From NCBI GenBank assembly GCA_025963775.1, contig JAOQAD010000023.1, forward strand, positions 1-64,000: a DNA stretch of 64,000 bases, given 5' to 3'. This document shows, one piece after another, positions 42,607 through 50,477 of the stretch (its first letter is position 1; the number at the start of each line of letters is the position of its first letter). Source of the DNA: Bacteroidota bacterium. Lineage in GTDB: Bacteria > Bacteroidota > Bacteroidia > 2-12-FULL-35-15. The notes below the pieces were generated by a model. The model saw only the letters and a list, made by a program, of their open reading frames with translations. It did not search any database and was not told the origin of the DNA. A program made the translations under genes and the position numbers.

Positions 42607-44088
42607 TTAGAACTGAAGGTAAATCGGCATTACCTGGTCGGCCTGCTTCACCTGGATAATGATCCAGATAAACACCAAAATAACGGCTATCCGCCCCGCC
42701 AGCGTGATCTTTGTGAGCACCAGCTCCGAAAAGCGCTGGTAGGATCCGGGGATAAAATGAATGACGTATCCCAATAGCATTACGGCAAACACAAGCCCGT
42801 AAGCTTCCAGCATCGGCCGCCATGCCGCCCCGTTGAAATTAGTAAAGATCTGGCTGATGATCACCCCGGCATCGTGAAAAGAGGATGCTTTGAAGAAGAT
42901 CCAGCAGAAACAGACGAAATGAAAGGTGATGATCACTCCTATTATTTTTAGAATTTTAGAATTCCGAATTTTAGAATTCCCAAAAAGAGTGATCCGCACC
43001 TTATCAATCGCCAGCGCTACGCCGTGCATTCCGCCCCAGACAATAAAATTGAAAGAAGCGCCATGCCAGAGCCCGCCGATCAGCATCGTCAGCATGAGAT
43101 TGAAATATTGCCGGAATTTCCCTACCCTGTTGCCGCCCAGCGAAATGTATAAATAATCCTTGAGCCAGGACGACAGCGACATATGCCAGCGCCGCCAGAA
43201 CTCGGTGATGCTGCTCGACTGGTAGGGCGAATCGAAATTCTCATTAATAGTGAAGCCCATCCATCTTGCCATCCCGATCGCCATGTCGGAATACCCTGAA
43301 AAATCGCAGTAGATCACCATCGCGTAGCCGTACACTCCCAATAAGCACTCGATCCCCGAATGCCGGGAAGGGTCATCGAAAATATACTGCACATAATTCA
43401 CATAAATAAAATCGGAGATCACCACTTTCTTGAAAAGTCCGCCCAGGATCAAATACAGGCCTCCTGCAATATCATGCTCGGTGACAAAAATGTCTTTCCG
43501 GATCTGCGGGATAAAATCGGAAGCCCTTACGATCGGGCCCATAACAAGCTTCGGAAAAAAAGTAAGAAAGAAGCAGTAATCCAGGAAACTGGTCACGGGC
43601 TTGAATTTGCCGCGGTACACATCAATGGTGTAGCTAAGGTTCTCAAAGGTGTAAAAGGAGATCCCGATCGGCAGGATCAGCTTCAATGGCTGGATATGCC
43701 CGAGCTGCAGGTCGTTGATGATCTCGATGAAGAAATTGGTGTATTTAAAATAGAACAGCAGGCTCAGGTTGATCAGGATGCTGATCACGAGGATGATCTT
43801 CTTGTTCGACTTTCCCTTCACCCGGTACATAAGGTTCGACAGGTTGAAATCCACCACAGCAGAAAGCAGGATGAATAAAAAATAAAACCCGCAGGCCTTG
43901 TAAAAGAAGAACAATGAAAACAGCGTAAAATATATAACCCTTGAAAGCTTACGCTTGTAAAGGAATTGGTAGCCCAGCAAAAACACGAGAAAGAAAAACA
44001 GGAAAAACCCGCTGTTGAACAAAAGCGGATCTTTTGAATTATAGGCCAGCTGGCCGAGGAGTTTTTGTATGTCGATGTCGTTGAACAT
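42607..44088 (-). CDS. MBOAT family membrane O-acyltransferase (AlgI/DltB-like)
   Basis: A 493-residue inner-membrane protein with about ten hydrophobic helices. The MBOAT core is FWRRWHMSLSSWLKDYLYIS (about residue 300) and LIGGLWHGASFNFIVWGG, whose His (about residue 342) is the catalytic residue. Such proteins move acyl groups across the membrane onto an exported polymer, with an SGNH partner finishing the transfer. Two SGNH genes lie just upstream on the same strand, beyond the inserted DUF559 cassette. The polymer could be peptidoglycan, an exopolysaccharide or another glycan; sequence does not tell. Confidence 0.93.
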   Translation of the reverse strand: MFNDIDIQKLLGQLAYNSKDPLLFNSGFFLFFFLVFLLGYQFLYKRKLSRVIYFTLFSLFFFYKACGFYFLFILLSAVVDFNLSNLMYRVKGKSNKKIILVISILINLSLLFYFKYTNFFIEIINDLQLGHIQPLKLILPIGISFYTFENLSYTIDVYRGKFKPVTSFLDYCFFLTFFPKLVMGPIVRASDFIPQIRKDIFVTEHDIAGGLYLILGGLFKKVVISDFIYVNYVQYIFDDPSRHSGIECLLGVYGYAMVIYCDFSGYSDMAIGMARWMGFTINENFDSPYQSSSITEFWRRWHMSLSSWLKDYLYISLGGNRVGKFRQYFNLMLTMLIGGLWHGASFNFIVWGGMHGVALAIDKVRITLFGNSKIRNSKILKIIGVIITFHFVCFCWIFFKASSFHDAGVIISQIFTNFNGAAWRPMLEAYGLVFAVMLLGYVIHFIPGSYQRFSELVLTKITLAGRIAVILVFIWIIIQVKQADQVMPIYLQF

Positions 44089-44098
44089 GCAGTATCAC

Positions 44099-44554
44099 GC
44101 TCCCCTCCTTTTTAAGGAGGGGCTGGGATGGTTAGACTAAAATCTTTTATTGATGCAATTTTGCTTTATCTCCTCAAGAACAAATTCTGTTTTTTCAAAA
44201 ACTTCTTTATTCTCAAAACGCAAGACCTTTATACCTAAACTATTAATATATTCCGTTCTTTTAATATCACGTTCTTCATTCACAGGATTAAAATGAATTT
44301 GTCCATCCAGTTCTATTGCAAGCAAAAATTGTGGACAATAAAAATCAACTATATAATTCCCTAAGCTGTGCTGCCGCCTGAATTTAAGTCCGTTTAGCTT
44401 TCCATTCTGGATTAACTTCCAAAGCTTCGCTTCTGCAGGAGTAAGATTATTTCTTAAAGATCTTCTCCTTTCTTTCAAATAAACACGGTTGTTAATTTTA
44501 TCCATAATATTTCTAAATGAACCACCCCTAGCCCTCCTTGCAAAGGAGGGGAGC
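44099..44554. mobile_element. DUF559 cassette bounded by 35-bp inverted repeats
   Basis: The left end (44099-44133) begins GCTCCCCTCCTTT, and the right end (44520-44554, read in reverse) begins the same; over 35 bases 29 are identical, and both finish at TGGTT. Each end is itself a hairpin (CCCTCCTT/AAGGAGGG). Between them lies one gene, a DUF559 protein, and nothing else. The unit sits in the short gap between an SGNH gene (44595) and the MBOAT gene (44088) that should be one operon. No target-site duplication is obvious. Mobility is inferred from structure. Confidence 0.65.
44137..44505 (-). CDS. DUF559 endonuclease-like protein
   Basis: A 122-residue protein of the DUF559 family, related to very-short-patch-repair endonucleases. 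RSLRNNLTPAEAKLWKLIQ and GLKFRRQHSLGNYIVDFYCP lead to the nuclease core YIVDFYCPQFLLAIELDGQ (Asp, Glu-x-Asp), then KRTEYINSLGIKVLRFEN. The fold is PD-(D/E)XK-like and the active-site acidic residues are kept. The gene is the only one between the 35-bp inverted repeats. Whether the protein nicks DNA at those ends is unknown. Confidence 0.92.
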   Translation of the reverse strand: MDKINNRVYLKERRRSLRNNLTPAEAKLWKLIQNGKLNGLKFRRQHSLGNYIVDFYCPQFLLAIELDGQIHFNPVNEERDIKRTEYINSLGIKVLRFENKEVFEKTEFVLEEIKQNCINKRF

Positions 44555-44594
44555 AGATTCTGCTAACATTTAAAATTTCTGTAACTCATTATTC

Positions 44595-45860
44595 CTACTT
44601 CTTCCCCTTATACCTCTCGTACCCTTTCAAAAATGCCTGGTACAGCAGGTCACCCTGGATCTGGTAGCCTTTGCCGCTGAAATGCACCCGGTCCTTGGCC
44701 GATAATTTTGCCGTGTACCATTTTGCCATCGAGCCGTAACCGCCCATCACTTCATACAGATCCCAATAGGCCAGATTATGATCGAGGGAATACTTGATGA
44801 TCGCCTCCCGGGCCAGCTTCATATCAGGATTTTTCACCCTGCCTTTCCTGCTCTTCCTGAATGAATCGCCGGGAGTCGTGAGTAAGATGGCAGTGTTGGG
44901 GTTGGCATTCTTAATGTTCGTGATGAGCGTATCGATGTTGCGGTAGAACAGATCTTTATCGAATCCTGCGGAGAATGCTTCATTCGTGCCCATGGAGATG
45001 ATCACGAGATCGGCATTGAGATACGAGAACTGCTGCAGGAAATATTTCGACATGTTGTAATGCCTGTATTCTGCCCCATTCACACCGATCATATCGTACA
45101 GCACACCGGCGGAATCATTTTCGAGCATCATCCCGTAAATGCGCGTGGAATGCTGCATGGCAGTATCGGCAGCCTTGTTGCGCAGGTAGATCTGGCGCAT
45201 GGGCTTGCTGAATTTTAATTCGGAAACAAAAGGGTTTGCCGATTTATCGATCGGGCGGATGATGCCGATCTCGCAGTTAAGGTCATCGCACACCGTGAGC
45301 TCGTAATTGGAAGGGCCTTTTTCATGGAACAGGGTGAACTTCGTAAAGCTGTATCCTAGCTTCGGCTGGTCTTTCACCATGATGCTGATCTCCGCCACCG
45401 AATCTTTTGTTTCCACGGTAAATCCTGCAATACCGATCGGCAAAGGCTTATCATAGAACACATTCCGCTTGGCATCCCAAACCACATTGGTAACTGTTTT
45501 ATAGCTGGTGGGCTCATTGCTTTTTGCAACGCGGTAAGGGAAGATCAATCCACGGCCTGCATTCCCGAATTTCAGCTGCATTTCCTGGCGCACGCTGCCG
45601 GAAAGGATATCTGCCTGGATGTGTGAATCGCCAATGTGCACAATGTTCACACGGCCCTGCTTTGTGGTTTCGAGCTGGTATAATTTCTCATACACAAAAG
45701 CGAGCGAGCTGCTGTCGTTCTCAATTTTATTGAGATCGGTACGGATGAACTTGTACGGCTTGTAAGAAGTACTGTCAACCGTTTGAGCCTCTGAATAAAA
45801 AGCAACACACACAACAACAACCGAAAGAACACACTGCTTCCAGTAAGAAGCAGAAGCCAT
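44595..45860 (-). CDS. SGNH/GDSL hydrolase-like exported protein B
   Basis: A 421-residue exported protein from the ATG at 45860; a longer reading (45902) would overlap the previous gene. A signal helix (VLSVVVVCVAFYSEAQ) precedes a SGNH domain with an insertion: block I IVHIGDSHIQAD (nucleophile Ser), block III LVIISMGTNEAF, block V DRVHFSGKGY (Asp and His). It pairs with the other SGNH gene 16 bases upstream. Such proteins in MBOAT clusters act as the periplasmic acyl transferase or esterase. Confidence 0.88.
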   Translation of the reverse strand: MASASYWKQCVLSVVVVCVAFYSEAQTVDSTSYKPYKFIRTDLNKIENDSSSLAFVYEKLYQLETTKQGRVNIVHIGDSHIQADILSGSVRQEMQLKFGNAGRGLIFPYRVAKSNEPTSYKTVTNVVWDAKRNVFYDKPLPIGIAGFTVETKDSVAEISIMVKDQPKLGYSFTKFTLFHEKGPSNYELTVCDDLNCEIGIIRPIDKSANPFVSELKFSKPMRQIYLRNKAADTAMQHSTRIYGMMLENDSAGVLYDMIGVNGAEYRHYNMSKYFLQQFSYLNADLVIISMGTNEAFSAGFDKDLFYRNIDTLITNIKNANPNTAILLTTPGDSFRKSRKGRVKNPDMKLAREAIIKYSLDHNLAYWDLYEVMGGYGSMAKWYTAKLSAKDRVHFSGKGYQIQGDLLYQAFLKGYERYKGKK

Positions 45861-45876
45861 ACGCAACGAATATTTT

Positions 45877-47268
45877 TTAATTAAGCTTTTTGTTATAATC
45901 ACCGTATTCGCTCATTAATTTAGTGTACAATAATTTTCCAACCTTGTGCGCGCCCCTGAAATTGAAATGCGTGTAATCCTTGTTTGCGAGCACCGTATCA
46001 CCCTCTACCCACTTCACCATCGAACCTTCTCCGCCCATAGCATCGTAAAGGCTCCAGTAGGCGCAGCCGGTTTGCTCTGCCATTCGTTTCTGAACATTCA
46101 CCAACAATGGAACGCTCGGATCGGTTTGATAAATGCCATCCTTGCGATAGCCTTTATCGCCTACGCTGATCAGTAAAATACTTGCATTGGGAAAGCTGGC
46201 CCTGATGTGTTTGATCACATTCAGCATGCCGCGCTCGTACCAGGAAAAATCGGTAACGCCCGGACTCACTGCGTTGAGGCCGTATTCCAGCACCACGAGA
46301 TCATAATCAAGGTATTGATCGGTGCCGGAATAAATGCTCTGCGGGACTTTCACAAGCGGAAAACCGGAATTACCGCGGAAAGAAAAATTGTCGACAAAGG
46401 CACCACTGTCGCTTTCCATGCTCAGCCCGAAAATATCCATGGAAGTTGTGCATTGAAATTTCGCGCTTAATGACTGTACTCCTTTTCCGTTATCGATCAG
46501 CACTTCGTTCACCGGCTCTTTTCCATCGAGCTTATAGCTATTATTATTAACAGTCACCGAATTTGTTCCTTCGCTTTTTCCGTAAAGGATCCTGGTTTTA
46601 TAAAAGCGGTCGAGGTGTTTTTGCTTTACGGCAATGTATTTCACCCAGCTTTCGTTCGCGGTGTTGCTTGTATCCGCCTTACCTGAAACCTGCGGCACAA
46701 AGCTGTAGCCGGAGATGCCGAGCACATGGTTCGCGGGCATATTATCGAGGAGTGTATGGGTTGTCCAGCCGCCGAACTGGTGCATGATGCTGGTCCTGAA
46801 GCCTGCCACAATGGAAGTGACCGGCACGAAACCAACCCCGGCCCCGCCGAATGCATCCTGCATTTCATTGCGAAGGTCCTGCGTAATAAGGTCGCCCTCG
46901 ATCATCGAATCGCCGAAATAGGCAATGCGAACCTTTTTCTTTTTTTTGATCTCATTGAGTGCGCCAAAGAAATGTGCAAGTGCCGAGGTACTGTCGTCCG
47001 GAAAATCGATGATGTTTGCAGGGTCGGCTGTGCGCACAGCAACCGCAGTGCTGTCTTTCGCAACCACGGAATCATTTACCACCACAACGGACAAAGGAAA
47101 AAATTTAGCTTTTCCTTTCAGGAGAACATCCCCGAGCGGGTCTACTTTTTTTGTCTTATGCCCGAAGAGATTGAATTCGGTGCTGAATTGTGAAAGAACA
47201 AGCAATACAATGGTAACTGCAAGTACCATTATAAAAGGTTGGGAGTGCCTGTTTTTATTGTCGTTCAT
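45877..47268 (-). CDS. SGNH/GDSL hydrolase-like membrane-anchored protein A
   Basis: A 463-residue protein from the ATG at 47268; an upstream reading to 47352 has a poor N-terminus and runs into a repeat. An N-terminal membrane helix (PFIMVLAVTIVLLVLSQF) anchors it facing the periplasm. SGNH blocks: RIAYFGDSMIEGD, LVVLEYGLNAVSPG (Asn) and DYTHFNFRGAH (Asp-x-x-His). It is the first gene of the likely O-acylation operon A, B, (DUF559 cassette), MBOAT. It resembles the AlgJ/AlgX and DltD type of helpers in arrangement, not clearly in sequence. Confidence 0.87.
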   Translation of the reverse strand: MNDNKNRHSQPFIMVLAVTIVLLVLSQFSTEFNLFGHKTKKVDPLGDVLLKGKAKFFPLSVVVVNDSVVAKDSTAVAVRTADPANIIDFPDDSTSALAHFFGALNEIKKKKKVRIAYFGDSMIEGDLITQDLRNEMQDAFGGAGVGFVPVTSIVAGFRTSIMHQFGGWTTHTLLDNMPANHVLGISGYSFVPQVSGKADTSNTANESWVKYIAVKQKHLDRFYKTRILYGKSEGTNSVTVNNNSYKLDGKEPVNEVLIDNGKGVQSLSAKFQCTTSMDIFGLSMESDSGAFVDNFSFRGNSGFPLVKVPQSIYSGTDQYLDYDLVVLEYGLNAVSPGVTDFSWYERGMLNVIKHIRASFPNASILLISVGDKGYRKDGIYQTDPSVPLLVNVQKRMAEQTGCAYWSLYDAMGGEGSMVKWVEGDTVLANKDYTHFNFRGAHKVGKLLYTKLMSEYGDYNKKLN

Positions 47269-47418: not shown

Positions 47419-48621
47419 TTAGTGTTTCATGGGTGCTCCGTCTTTCACATCCACGAGCTCCACATCAAATGTAAGGTCTGCTTTTGCAGGGATCATCGGC
47501 GGACGGCCGGCTTCACCATACGCAAGCAGGTAAGGGATCACGAGCCTGAGCTTGTCACCCACATTCATGAGCGCAATGCCTTCTTCCCAGCCCTGGATCA
47601 CATAGGCCTGGCCCAGCGGGAACTCCAACGGCTCACCACGCTCAACGGAAGAGTCGAACATTGTTCCATCGGCAAGATAACCTGAATAGTGCACCTTTAC
47701 TGTTTTACCGGCTTCCGCTTTCACGGTGCTTCCGCTTCTTTTCACTTCGTAATAGGTAATTCCGGAAGCGGTTTTCTTCGCTTCCAGCCCTTTGATATCA
47801 TACGCTACCGGCGGGATCACCTTTTGCACATCCATCATCTCCACATCGAAAATAATGTCTGCGTTCGGTGGGATCGGGCCGCTGCCTTTTTCACCGAAAG
47901 CGAGTTTTGAAGGAATAATGATCCTTGCTTTTTCGCCTTTGTGCATCAGGGCAAGCCCTTCTTCCAGCCCGGCGAACAATTGGCCTTTACCGATATTCGC
48001 TTTCAGAGGCTGACCTCTTTCAATGGAAGAATCGAACATTTTTCCATCGATAAGGAATGCGCTGTAATTCGCCACCACCTTGGTGCCGCTTACTGCCTGC
48101 TCTCCCGATTTGTTTGCTTTTACAACAATGTACTGCAGGCCGCTTGCCGTTTTCACAGTGTCTTTTCCCTTAACATCAAAAGGCCTTGCACCTTCTATCA
48201 CTTCGATCAGCTCCACATCAAAGATCAGTGTTGAGTTTGCCGGGATCTTGCCCATTGCGCGCTCGCCGTAACCCAGCTCGGGGCCGAACTTAATGGTGGC
48301 TTTATCGCCTTCCTCGAGCAGCTGGAATGCTTCATCCCAGCCTTTGATCACCTGGCCTGCGCCTACTTTGAACTCGAAGGGCTGTCCTCTCTGGACAGAG
48401 CTGTCGAATATGGTATCGTTCAACAATTTGCCGGTGTAATGTACTTTTACCTTGTCGCCGGCCTGGGCTTTTTTGCCATTTCCTTTTGAGGTAATGGTAT
48501 ATTCTAATCCTGAGGCTGTTTTCACTGTTTTAGGCTTTTTAACTTTTACACTTTTCACTTTTTCCTGGGCGATCGATCCGAAGGCCAGTAGTAATAGAAG
48601 TGCGGTTAATGTTCTTTTCAT
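47419..48621 (-). CDS. exported FKBP-type prolyl isomerase with three FKBP domains
   Basis: A 400-residue exported protein (signal MKRTLTALLLLLAFGSIAQ) with three complete FKBP domains at about residues 33-140, 155-265 and 283-393. Each has the core pattern HYTGKLLNDTIFDSSVQRGQ, VIKGWDEAFQLLEEGDKATI and GYGERAMGKIPANSTLIFDV or a close match. It should catalyse cis-trans proline isomerisation or act as a chaperone in the periplasm. It is the last of four FKBP genes in a row, 8 bases after the one before. Confidence 0.93.
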   Translation of the reverse strand: MKRTLTALLLLLAFGSIAQEKVKSVKVKKPKTVKTASGLEYTITSKGNGKKAQAGDKVKVHYTGKLLNDTIFDSSVQRGQPFEFKVGAGQVIKGWDEAFQLLEEGDKATIKFGPELGYGERAMGKIPANSTLIFDVELIEVIEGARPFDVKGKDTVKTASGLQYIVVKANKSGEQAVSGTKVVANYSAFLIDGKMFDSSIERGQPLKANIGKGQLFAGLEEGLALMHKGEKARIIIPSKLAFGEKGSGPIPPNADIIFDVEMMDVQKVIPPVAYDIKGLEAKKTASGITYYEVKRSGSTVKAEAGKTVKVHYSGYLADGTMFDSSVERGEPLEFPLGQAYVIQGWEEGIALMNVGDKLRLVIPYLLAYGEAGRPPMIPAKADLTFDVELVDVKDGAPMKH

Positions 48622-48629
48622 TTTTAATT

Positions 48630-49580
48630 CTATTTAGATGGTACAATGCTTAGGACCTCTACCTCGAACACCATCGGGGAGAACGGTGGGATCGGCCCGC
48701 CGCCTCTTTCACCATATGCAAGCGATGAAGGCAGAATAATAGTTGCTTTGCTGCCTGCGCCCATCATTTTCAATGCTTCACTCATTCCCGGTACCAATAA
48801 TCCACCGATTGTGAATTCAACAGGCTTGTATGGATTTCTTTCATCGTAGATGTTTGCTTTTTTTGCTTCTGCTTCGCTGTTGGTATCAAAAACAGTTCCA
48901 TCCAGCAAACGGCCTGTATAATTTGCCATTACCTTTTGCCCATCTGCAGGGTGCGGGCCTTTGCCTTTTGTTTTTTCAATGAAGTAAAGCCCGCTTTCAG
49001 TCGGCTTCACAGTCACCTTGTTATCCTCGAGGTATTTTGCAAGCACTTTTCCTTCTTCGTTCTTGCGTGTTTCCATCATGATCTGCTGCTCTTCCATCTG
49101 CTTCTGGCGCTCTTTCTCCACCACTTCTTTCGTAGTGATCTTCTGCAGCTTCACTTCATAGGTAAGCAGTGAGCCTTTTTTCAGGAAAGGAGGTGTTTCC
49201 TTGCCTTTATACATTGAATCGATGCTTACCATAAAGCTGGCGCTGTCGCCAACGGCCATGGTGGAAAGTGCTTCTTCAAAGCTGCCGCCGAATTCCGATT
49301 TCATAAGCGGGAACTCAACATAAGGTGCTCCCTGGCGGTTCACCTTCGGGTCTTTTGAATCAAACAGGATGGAATCCTTATCCGTTTTCACGGCAAGCAT
49401 TACCTGCATCACATCTCCTTCTTTCGGGATCACGCCTTTTTCGTCGTGCGTGTAGAATTTAGAGTATAAACCGCTTTCGGATTTATCATACCCCGGGTGA
49501 TCAGATTTTTCACATGCTGTGAAGGCAACTACAGTTCCTACGGCAGCAAGTGCAAGTGTTTTAGAAAATGAATTTGTCAT
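48630..49580 (-). CDS. FKBP-type prolyl isomerase lipoprotein, two modules
   Basis: A 316-residue lipoprotein (VVAFTACEK lipobox, Cys23). An N-terminal FKBP-like module is degenerate (GSFEEALSTMAVGDSASFMV kept, active-site aromatics mostly gone). A long charged helix follows (about residues 150-190, KERQKQMEEQQIMMETR), then a canonical FKBP domain (NYTGRLLDGTVFDTN, VPGMSEALKMMGAGSKATI, LAYGERGGGPIPPFSPMVFE). The layout resembles FkpA and Mip, where a helix links a dimer module to the isomerase. Third gene of the FKBP operon. Confidence 0.92.
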   Translation of the reverse strand: MTNSFSKTLALAAVGTVVAFTACEKSDHPGYDKSESGLYSKFYTHDEKGVIPKEGDVMQVMLAVKTDKDSILFDSKDPKVNRQGAPYVEFPLMKSEFGGSFEEALSTMAVGDSASFMVSIDSMYKGKETPPFLKKGSLLTYEVKLQKITTKEVVEKERQKQMEEQQIMMETRKNEEGKVLAKYLEDNKVTVKPTESGLYFIEKTKGKGPHPADGQKVMANYTGRLLDGTVFDTNSEAEAKKANIYDERNPYKPVEFTIGGLLVPGMSEALKMMGAGSKATIILPSSLAYGERGGGPIPPFSPMVFEVEVLSIVPSK

Positions 49581-49589
49581 GTTTGATTT

Positions 49590-50477
49590 TTATTTTTTAT
49601 TGATACTTAAGAGTTCTATTTCATAGATAACTGTGCTGTAAGGAGGGACAATTCCCGTGGAAGAACCAGCTTCTCCAAAAGCGAGCTGCGAAGGTATAAT
49701 AAATTTTGCTTTAGCGCCTTCGTTCAATAAACTTATTCCCAATTCAATTCCTTTGAGCACCTGCCCCTGCTCCCCGAGCCTGAATTCAAGCGGCTGCCCG
49801 CGGTCGTAGGTAGATTCGAACGGACGGCCATCGAGGAAGCTGCCTTTGTAATTCACTTTTACAAGGTCGCCGGCTTCGGCATTATTACCGGCGCCCTGGG
49901 CCAGCGGCATGTAATACATCCCGGCTGAGAAAAAAGAAAAATGTGTCTGGCTGGTATCGAGAAAGGTCTGCAGTTTGCGCTGCTCTTCTATGTCGCGGTC
50001 GGCAACAAGGTCCTGGTATTCTTTTACCGCTCCTGCATACTCCTGCCGGTTCATGATGCGGTTAAGCTTCACTTCCATTTTCACCACGTCGCCATGCTTC
50101 AGGAAGATGGGCAATTCTGCACGGAAAAAGCTTTTGAACAGCTCTGCGGCATCCACAATAAAGGAAACACTGTCACCTTCGTTCATGGAAGTAAGGCCTT
50201 CCTCAAAGCTGCCTTTAAAGGAGGAATGATTGAATGGGAGAATGACCATCCCGGTTTCGTTGCTGGAATAAGAATCGAGAAAGGTGGAATCCTTTGCAGT
50301 TTTATAAGTGATCCTGAGCTGGAGGTAATCGCCGATCGAGGGCTTTTTTCTGCCATCCCCGATCACGCGCAATTTGTAAAATAAGCCGGTATCTGTTTCC
50401 GTGTAGCCTTTGTAAACGGGATCGGTGCAGGAACAAACAAACACTGCAATCATTATATATAATACACTTATTTTCAA
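49590..50477 (-). CDS. FKBP-type prolyl isomerase lipoprotein, two modules
   Basis: A 295-residue lipoprotein (lipobox VCSCTDP) that begins at a TTG; the first ATG (50453) would leave too short a signal. Same plan as the next gene: degenerate FKBP-like module (GSFEEGLTSMNEGDSVSFI), charged helix (EYAGAVKEYQDLVADRDIEE), and a canonical FKBP domain (NYKGSFLDGRPFESTYDRGQ, LKGIELGISLLNEGAKAKF, LAFGEAGSSTGIVPPYSTVI). The similarity suggests a tandem duplication. Second gene of the FKBP operon, with 4 bases between it and the first. Confidence 0.92.
   Translation of the reverse strand: MKISVLYIMIAVFVCSCTDPVYKGYTETDTGLFYKLRVIGDGRKKPSIGDYLQLRITYKTAKDSTFLDSYSSNETGMVILPFNHSSFKGSFEEGLTSMNEGDSVSFIVDAAELFKSFFRAELPIFLKHGDVVKMEVKLNRIMNRQEYAGAVKEYQDLVADRDIEEQRKLQTFLDTSQTHFSFFSAGMYYMPLAQGAGNNAEAGDLVKVNYKGSFLDGRPFESTYDRGQPLEFRLGEQGQVLKGIELGISLLNEGAKAKFIIPSQLAFGEAGSSTGIVPPYSTVIYEIELLSINKK

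Follow-up and report, generated by a model that had tools for sequence, protein, structure and literature searches.

The short segment between an SGNH/GDSL hydrolase gene and an MBOAT acyltransferase gene in the analysed window (64,000 nucleotides, positions 1 to 64,000 of contig JAOQAD010000023.1 from a Bacteroidota bacterium) probably belongs to a widespread family of tiny mobile elements. In this family, a DUF559 nuclease gene lies between inverted REP-like repeats, in a manner resembling REP/RAYT systems. The mobile reading is favoured because units that are present in some genomes and absent from others, a scar, an internal deletion, differing ends and at least eight unrelated host proteins are hard to explain without insertion.

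The whole unit spans 44089–44563, counting the outer parts in which the inverted repeat is weaker; these limits were obtained by local alignment of both flanks, along which the similarity of the arms continues outward to about 44089 and 44563. The left edge adjoins the MBOAT start codon (44088). A profile search placed the host genes at 42607–44088 (MBOAT, minus strand) and 44595–45902 (SGNH, minus strand), and the unit does lie between them. The arms themselves, located by repeat search and folding, are 35 nt each (44099–44133 and 44520–44554), separated by 386 nt and complementary at 29 of 35 positions (83%), in agreement with the sequence-only reading. Their inverted-repeat score is 43; the maximum in 50 mononucleotide shuffles was 24. 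Each end carries its own hairpin, as had been claimed, the right one being the weaker. At the left end, with the hairpin outside and the tail inside, DNA folding gives CCCCTCCTT-TTT-AAGGAGGGG (44102–44122; −9.4 kcal/mol, equalled by 2 of 200 shuffles), and the adjoining spacer and tail (44123–44133, minus strand), assigned from the sequence and the mirror-image rule described below, read AACCATCCCAG ahead of the C-rich arm. At the right end, the tail AACCACCCC and the 3-nt spacer TAG (44520–44531, plus strand) lie inside, and the hairpin CCCTCCTT-GCA-AAGGAGGG (44532–44550; −7.9 kcal/mol as DNA, equalled by 13 of 200 shuffles) lies outside. Read on the sequence, the orientation is tail-in. The hairpin pattern with up to three mismatches occurs three times in the window against 0.19 expected, and the exact hairpin is restricted to the window element within a 3.33 Mb genome whose assembly (44 contigs, estimated completeness 65%) lends weak support to absences.

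The sole gene between the arms (44137–44505, minus strand) encodes a 122-residue DUF559 protein. Its match to PF04480 (E = 1.7e-34; 118.4 bits, gathering cut-off 20.6) and lack of an internal stop bear out the earlier description of a single intact gene; one other match, to the MTES_1575 family, is weak and again to a nuclease. A profile search of the enclosed gene detected no HUH/Y1 tyrosine transposase. The family-invariant residues T22, E25, D54, E65, D67 and H71 are intact. The predicted structure (pLDDT 87) is matched best by 3hrl, itself a DUF559 protein (Z 14.7), followed by the homing endonuclease I-Bth0305I (PDB entry 3r3p; Z 11.9, r.m.s.d. 2.5 over 94 residues, Foldseek E 1.6e-4) and Vsr (Z 10.1), and the window protein is accordingly modelled with a Vsr-like catalytic fold. 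The E. coli family member YcjD has been assigned to the PD-(D/E)XK superfamily, near Vsr (PMC1189080). A role in an anti-phage system was considered and rejected, the PADLOC matches being weak only (the highest-scoring, to a methyl-directed restriction enzyme, reached 29.7 bits). A homologous unit, in the related genome G016, encodes a DUF559 protein with 74% amino-acid and 70% nucleotide identity to that of the window (dN 0.20, dS saturated). Amino-acid identity exceeded nucleotide identity in all four DUF559 pairs compared, with codon-based dS saturated in three of the four; the copies evolve under constraint.

SGNH and MBOAT had been supposed to be normally contiguous, and the relatives bear this out. 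The SGNH protein was detected in 30 of the 41 genomes searched, and MBOAT follows it directly in most of the relatives in which both were found. In 18 relatives with the two genes as neighbours the junction is empty; the gap measures 12–93 bp in 17 genomes, and in G009, which has the most similar SGNH, the empty junction consists of 240 bp of simple sequence. In the remaining genomes SGNH and MBOAT were not placed side by side. G016 carries its homologous DUF559 gene after SGNH together with a near-identical hairpin, and MBOAT is absent from the stretch fetched after SGNH in that genome. Retention of DUF559 at this place in all strains, which would have spoken against an inserted unit, was not observed: there are 18 empty junctions and one homologous unit. 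The proposal of a minimal insertion unit is supported by these empty junctions, by the structural relatives of the nuclease and by recurrence across phyla with inverted hairpin ends. The size of the family, its in-frame insertion in essential genes, the mirror-image tail and the parallel with REP/RAYT had no part in the sequence-only reading.

The source genome contains five DUF559 genes, four of which are flanked by inverted hairpin repeats; the divergent fifth lacks them. The four flanked copies, on contigs C33 (the window), C36, C9 and C27, have the stems CCCCTCCTT, CCCCTCTCC, CCCCCTTT and CCCCTCT, respectively, and thus distinct repeat sequences on a common plan of a C-rich hairpin with a stem-mirroring tail. 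Most DUF559 loci read in relatives likewise have inverted hairpin ends. Among 79 loci from named genomes of many phyla (including Bacteroidota, Patescibacteria, Cyanobacteria, Verrucomicrobiota, Chloroflexota, Nitrospirota, Proteobacteria and Planctomycetota), 41 reach an inverted-repeat score of at least 30, compared with 1.0% of 1339 shifted windows from the same loci. This score is reached by 117 of all 184 sampled DUF559 loci, and at least one tailed hairpin lies within 200 bp of 158 of 186 DUF559 genes. Some DUF559 proteins may have other work, because about half of the cross-phyla loci have no strong flanking repeat pair at this threshold and 28 of the 186 genes have no tailed hairpin; one such protein, VsrA of Caulobacter, is linked to cytosine methylation (PMC12907096). 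Two loci, L091 (Parabacteroides) and L139 (Clostridia), have DUF559 within long inverted repeats of another class with the motifs GGGACCG and GGTGGAG.

Read on the C-rich strand, the repeat consists of a tail, a 3-nt spacer, a stem arm, a short loop and the second stem arm. The tail mirrors the first stem arm. Strict matching across 112 distinct arms gives 0.777, against 0.655 after reassignment of tails among the arms (z 14.8), and a direct, non-mirror reading of the same arms gives 0.674 versus 0.642. The best spacer is 3 nt at 174 of 256 ends, and thymines of the arm are often replaced by adenines in the tail. Around DUF559 genes the tails read CACCCC or CTCACCCC, not GTAG. Mirror symmetry of a pyrimidine tract, as seen in tail plus stem, is what an intramolecular triplex would require. 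Pairs with tails outside and pairs with tails inside both occur among the 74 units with consistent ends: embedded units comprise 35 tail-out and four tail-in, and free units ten tail-out and 25 tail-in. A strict terminal-inverted-repeat reading was dropped, since both orientations exist. Classical transposon ends, by contrast, are constant in orientation. Classical insertion sequences and MITEs are defined by constant terminal inverted repeats and a target-site duplication; the ends of DUF559 units vary in sequence and orientation, and the relatives compared are too diverged for a duplication to be defined. Related nucleases are accompanied by related repeats (nearest-neighbour similarity 0.616, null 0.537, maximum of 2000 null values 0.578), which at the level of sequence similarity demonstrates co-variation of nuclease and repeat.

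Many copies lie within the reading frames of other proteins. At 75 of 184 scored loci, the open frame that contains DUF559 extends for 100 residues or more on either side of it; the hosts fall into 19 clusters, not all of them well defined. Hosts confirmed by Pfam are MetH (at two positions), IleRS, LeuRS, AcsA, RecG, HsdR, HsdM and methylmalonyl-CoA mutase. The translated hairpins form linkers, for example LTPSPSPKERG and PLSFGEGPGVR. An intein or intron around DUF559 was rejected: Pfam detected no Hint or other intein domain in nine embedded proteins, and no intron family reached the Rfam gathering threshold in nine loci including that of the window. A 158-row tree has only about ten switches from embedded to free copies and, for the 19 clusters, about 26 changes of host gene; with so few switches, many insertions may be old. 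Some individual loci are of separate interest. The metH gene of the source genome (L001, C36:70359–73670) carries a DUF559 unit in frame together with a third hairpin that stands alone roughly 100 bp from it, likewise in frame (LTPGPSPKERG), and a Flavobacterium MAG contig (L128) has a single MetH frame with two DUF559 insertions at two positions. Embedded DUF559 proteins (L022, L001, L010, L207 and others) show by eye an N-terminal Y-x-T-A-x-x-x-x-Y/W-like motif that is seemingly absent from free ones. At L207, a Flavo-1 RNA (RF01705; 786–875) lies upstream of the DUF559-carrying LeuRS gene.

The best evidence for gain and loss of units comes from one position in MetH, site A, for which many states were found; metH is single-copy in every insert-carrying genome examined. 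Among species of one genus, some have no insert. G013 has a single in-frame hairpin, which is shorter or degenerate in G004 and G040. In G010 a tail-only scar is present in a MetH that is 96% identical to that of the source genome over the query, and G009 has an internal deletion with both hairpins kept in frame. Full units occur in two subtypes (G000, G016 and G005; G027, G006 and G025), and the full unit of G022 has decayed repeats. These aligned states support gain and loss, although the events themselves are read from present-day sequences. By eye, the lone hairpin in G013 corresponds to the subtype 2 right arm, and in G016 the subtype 2 repeat tail CTGGAGAGGGGTGTG directly follows a subtype 1 unit; one unit may enter or replace another.

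Most repeats are not accompanied by a gene. The commonest hairpin type has 13 copies in the source genome and up to 79 in relatives, and the reversed pattern is almost absent from both. All 13 hairpins listed for the source genome are more than 1 kb from any DUF559 gene, and in hairpin-rich genomes solo repeats far outnumber gene-bearing ones. The suspicion that repeats might occur mostly without the gene and the gene mostly without repeats, which was raised as an argument against a joint unit, was therefore half right: repeats are mostly gene-less, and the gene is mostly repeat-flanked (158 of 186). The same holds for RAYT genes and REPs, whose repeats also occur mostly without the gene. Across 295 Bacteroidota genomes, a tailed hairpin was found in 59 of 125 with DUF559 and in 12 of 170 without (odds ratio 11.8, P = 1.2e-15), and the link is present both in genomes with and in genomes without Y1 transposases. 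In a permutation stratified by family the P values were 0.001 for DUF559 and 0.26 for Y1. After subtraction of two hairpins per DUF559 gene, P was 0.16 for any excess and 0.005 for hairpin-rich genomes (at least five). The genome-level association is thus partly made by the elements' own ends, and our case does not rest on it. Outside the phylum, Methylomonas WSC-7 has 33 copies of a related hairpin.

In E. coli K-12, the DUF559 gene is ycjD (L278, 2408–2761), and tailed hairpins of the DUF559 type are found at its stop codon and about 150 bp beyond. The ycjD hairpin is present in 5375 of 5426 E. coli genomes, and the median number of sites in each is 17. The ycjD-associated repeat may be the boxC of older literature.

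The nearest known system is REP/RAYT, or the REPtron, in which the transposase TnpA-REP is associated with GTAG-tagged repeats (PMC2817692, PMC3733652). Both have small palindromes with an unpaired tag, inverted on both sides of a nuclease gene, and many solo copies, some of them in frame within genes. They differ in the enzyme, RAYT being a HUH tyrosine transposase and DUF559 of the PD-(D/E)XK type, and in the tag, which is GTAG there and a C-rich stem-mirroring tail here; RAYT repeats in the same phylum are also of other sequence. I-Bth0305I is similar in having the closest solved fold outside DUF559 and in inserting at a fixed position in conserved genes, but the DUF559 unit is bounded by hairpin repeats and has no detected intein or intron around the nuclease. 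Rickettsia palindromic elements and CGTC REPs likewise occur as in-frame palindromes in functional genes (PMC3733652), and the latter have no known transposase and apparently lack a dedicated one (PMC3733652); both are of other sequence and are described as gene-less. A link to CGTC REPs was rejected: the CGTC core was not found at DUF559 ends, where just two isolated 9-mers were seen. Vsr and VsrA share the fold (Vsr, Z 10.1) or the DUF559 domain (VsrA; PMC12907096), but the window unit is bounded by repeats and its neighbours are SGNH and MBOAT, with no cytosine methyltransferase. A search of the literature, from which subscription journals were mostly excluded so that earlier notice is possible, returned nothing linking DUF559 to repeats.

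The main rival to a DUF559-mobilized element is that the repeats spread in some other way and DUF559 homes into them. The nuclease would cut solo repeats or empty sites, and repair would copy the cassette by gene conversion through repeat homology, so that DUF559 would not be the mobilizer. We regard this as rather unlikely, though several observations suit it: the closest solved fold outside DUF559 is that of a homing endonuclease; solo repeats greatly exceed gene-bearing ones, down to the 0 of 13 source-genome hairpins near a DUF559 gene; the orientation of repeat pairs is variable; and at MetH the G013 hairpin matches the right arm of subtype 2 and the subtype 1 unit of G016 is followed by a subtype 2 tail. 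A late passenger, however, would require neither that hairpins track DUF559 across genomes nor that nuclease and repeat co-vary, and no other repeat-spreading enzyme was found, RAYT being excluded as far as tested.

RAYT was considered as the driver in its own right, the hairpins being ordinary REPs mobilized by the Y1 enzyme and the DUF559 genes hitchhiking between two of them. RAYT is frequent among these genomes, being present in 210 of 296, and mobility has been described for REPs and inverted REP dimers (PMC3116915, PMC3733652). In the same phylum sample, this hairpin was found within 4.4 kb of RAYT at 0 of 20 loci, none of the 20 had RAYT with CACCCC-tailed flanking hairpins, and RAYT genes of this sample (L232–L235 and L244) have flanking repeats of other sequence, several of them GTAG-type; L244 is the sampled RAYT locus of the source genome itself, and its repeats are other than the DUF559 type. 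Y1_Tnp also had no effect on hairpin presence across the 295 Bacteroidota once DUF559 was controlled for (P = 0.37 and 0.33). The hairpins accompany DUF559 rather than RAYT; RAYT was rejected as the driver as far as tested, and we hold this explanation to be very improbable. Somewhat less remote, but still improbable, is that DUF559 serves the host as a VSP-like or structure-specific repair nuclease with the hairpins as its regulatory or working sites, and that the scatter of immobile units results from ancient inheritance and loss. VsrA of Caulobacter, a DUF559 protein, belongs to a pathway tied to cytosine methylation (PMC12907096), the embedded copies are constrained, and E. coli keeps ycjD with its downstream, dispersed hairpin. 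Against this stand presence and absence at both SGNH–MBOAT and MetH within one genus, the scar and the internal deletion, as well as the four units of the source genome, each with its own ends, and at least eight unrelated host proteins.

If the units are mobilized by DUF559, as we prefer, the nuclease would recognize the folded repeat, that is hairpin plus tail, in an extruded or single-stranded state. It would then nick or cut at the repeat border or at the target, and the break would be filled, through repair or replication, with a copy of the unit or of a single repeat. DUF559, as a homing-endonuclease-like enzyme, would have the role for its repeats that RAYT (TnpA-REP) has for GTAG-tagged REPs. 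Insertions would persist where they do little harm, either in intergenic gaps such as that of the window or, in frame, at loops of essential proteins that tolerate them, the arms then being translated as linkers. More tentatively, we can envisage a trans-phylum class of selfish elements alongside REP/RAYT. Its Vsr-like PD-(D/E)XK nuclease would mobilize hairpins whose tails mirror the stem, so that the ends could fold as a Hoogsteen triplex, and the elements would enter essential genes in frame, the nuclease being produced as one domain of its host protein, with YcjD and its dispersed hairpins as a domesticated or resident member; this broader picture may well prove too wide. Bacterial genomes commonly contain scattered palindromic repeats for which no transposase is known, and DUF559 is a candidate enzyme for the spread of one large class of them. 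The in-frame copies would represent a naturally occurring mobile nuclease housed in essential proteins, around which neither intein nor intron was found, and E. coli K-12, with ycjD and its downstream repeat, is an organism in which the question can be tested.

Elsewhere in the window, at 47419–50477, three adjacent minus-strand open reading frames resemble, by eye, FKBP-type peptidyl-prolyl isomerases.
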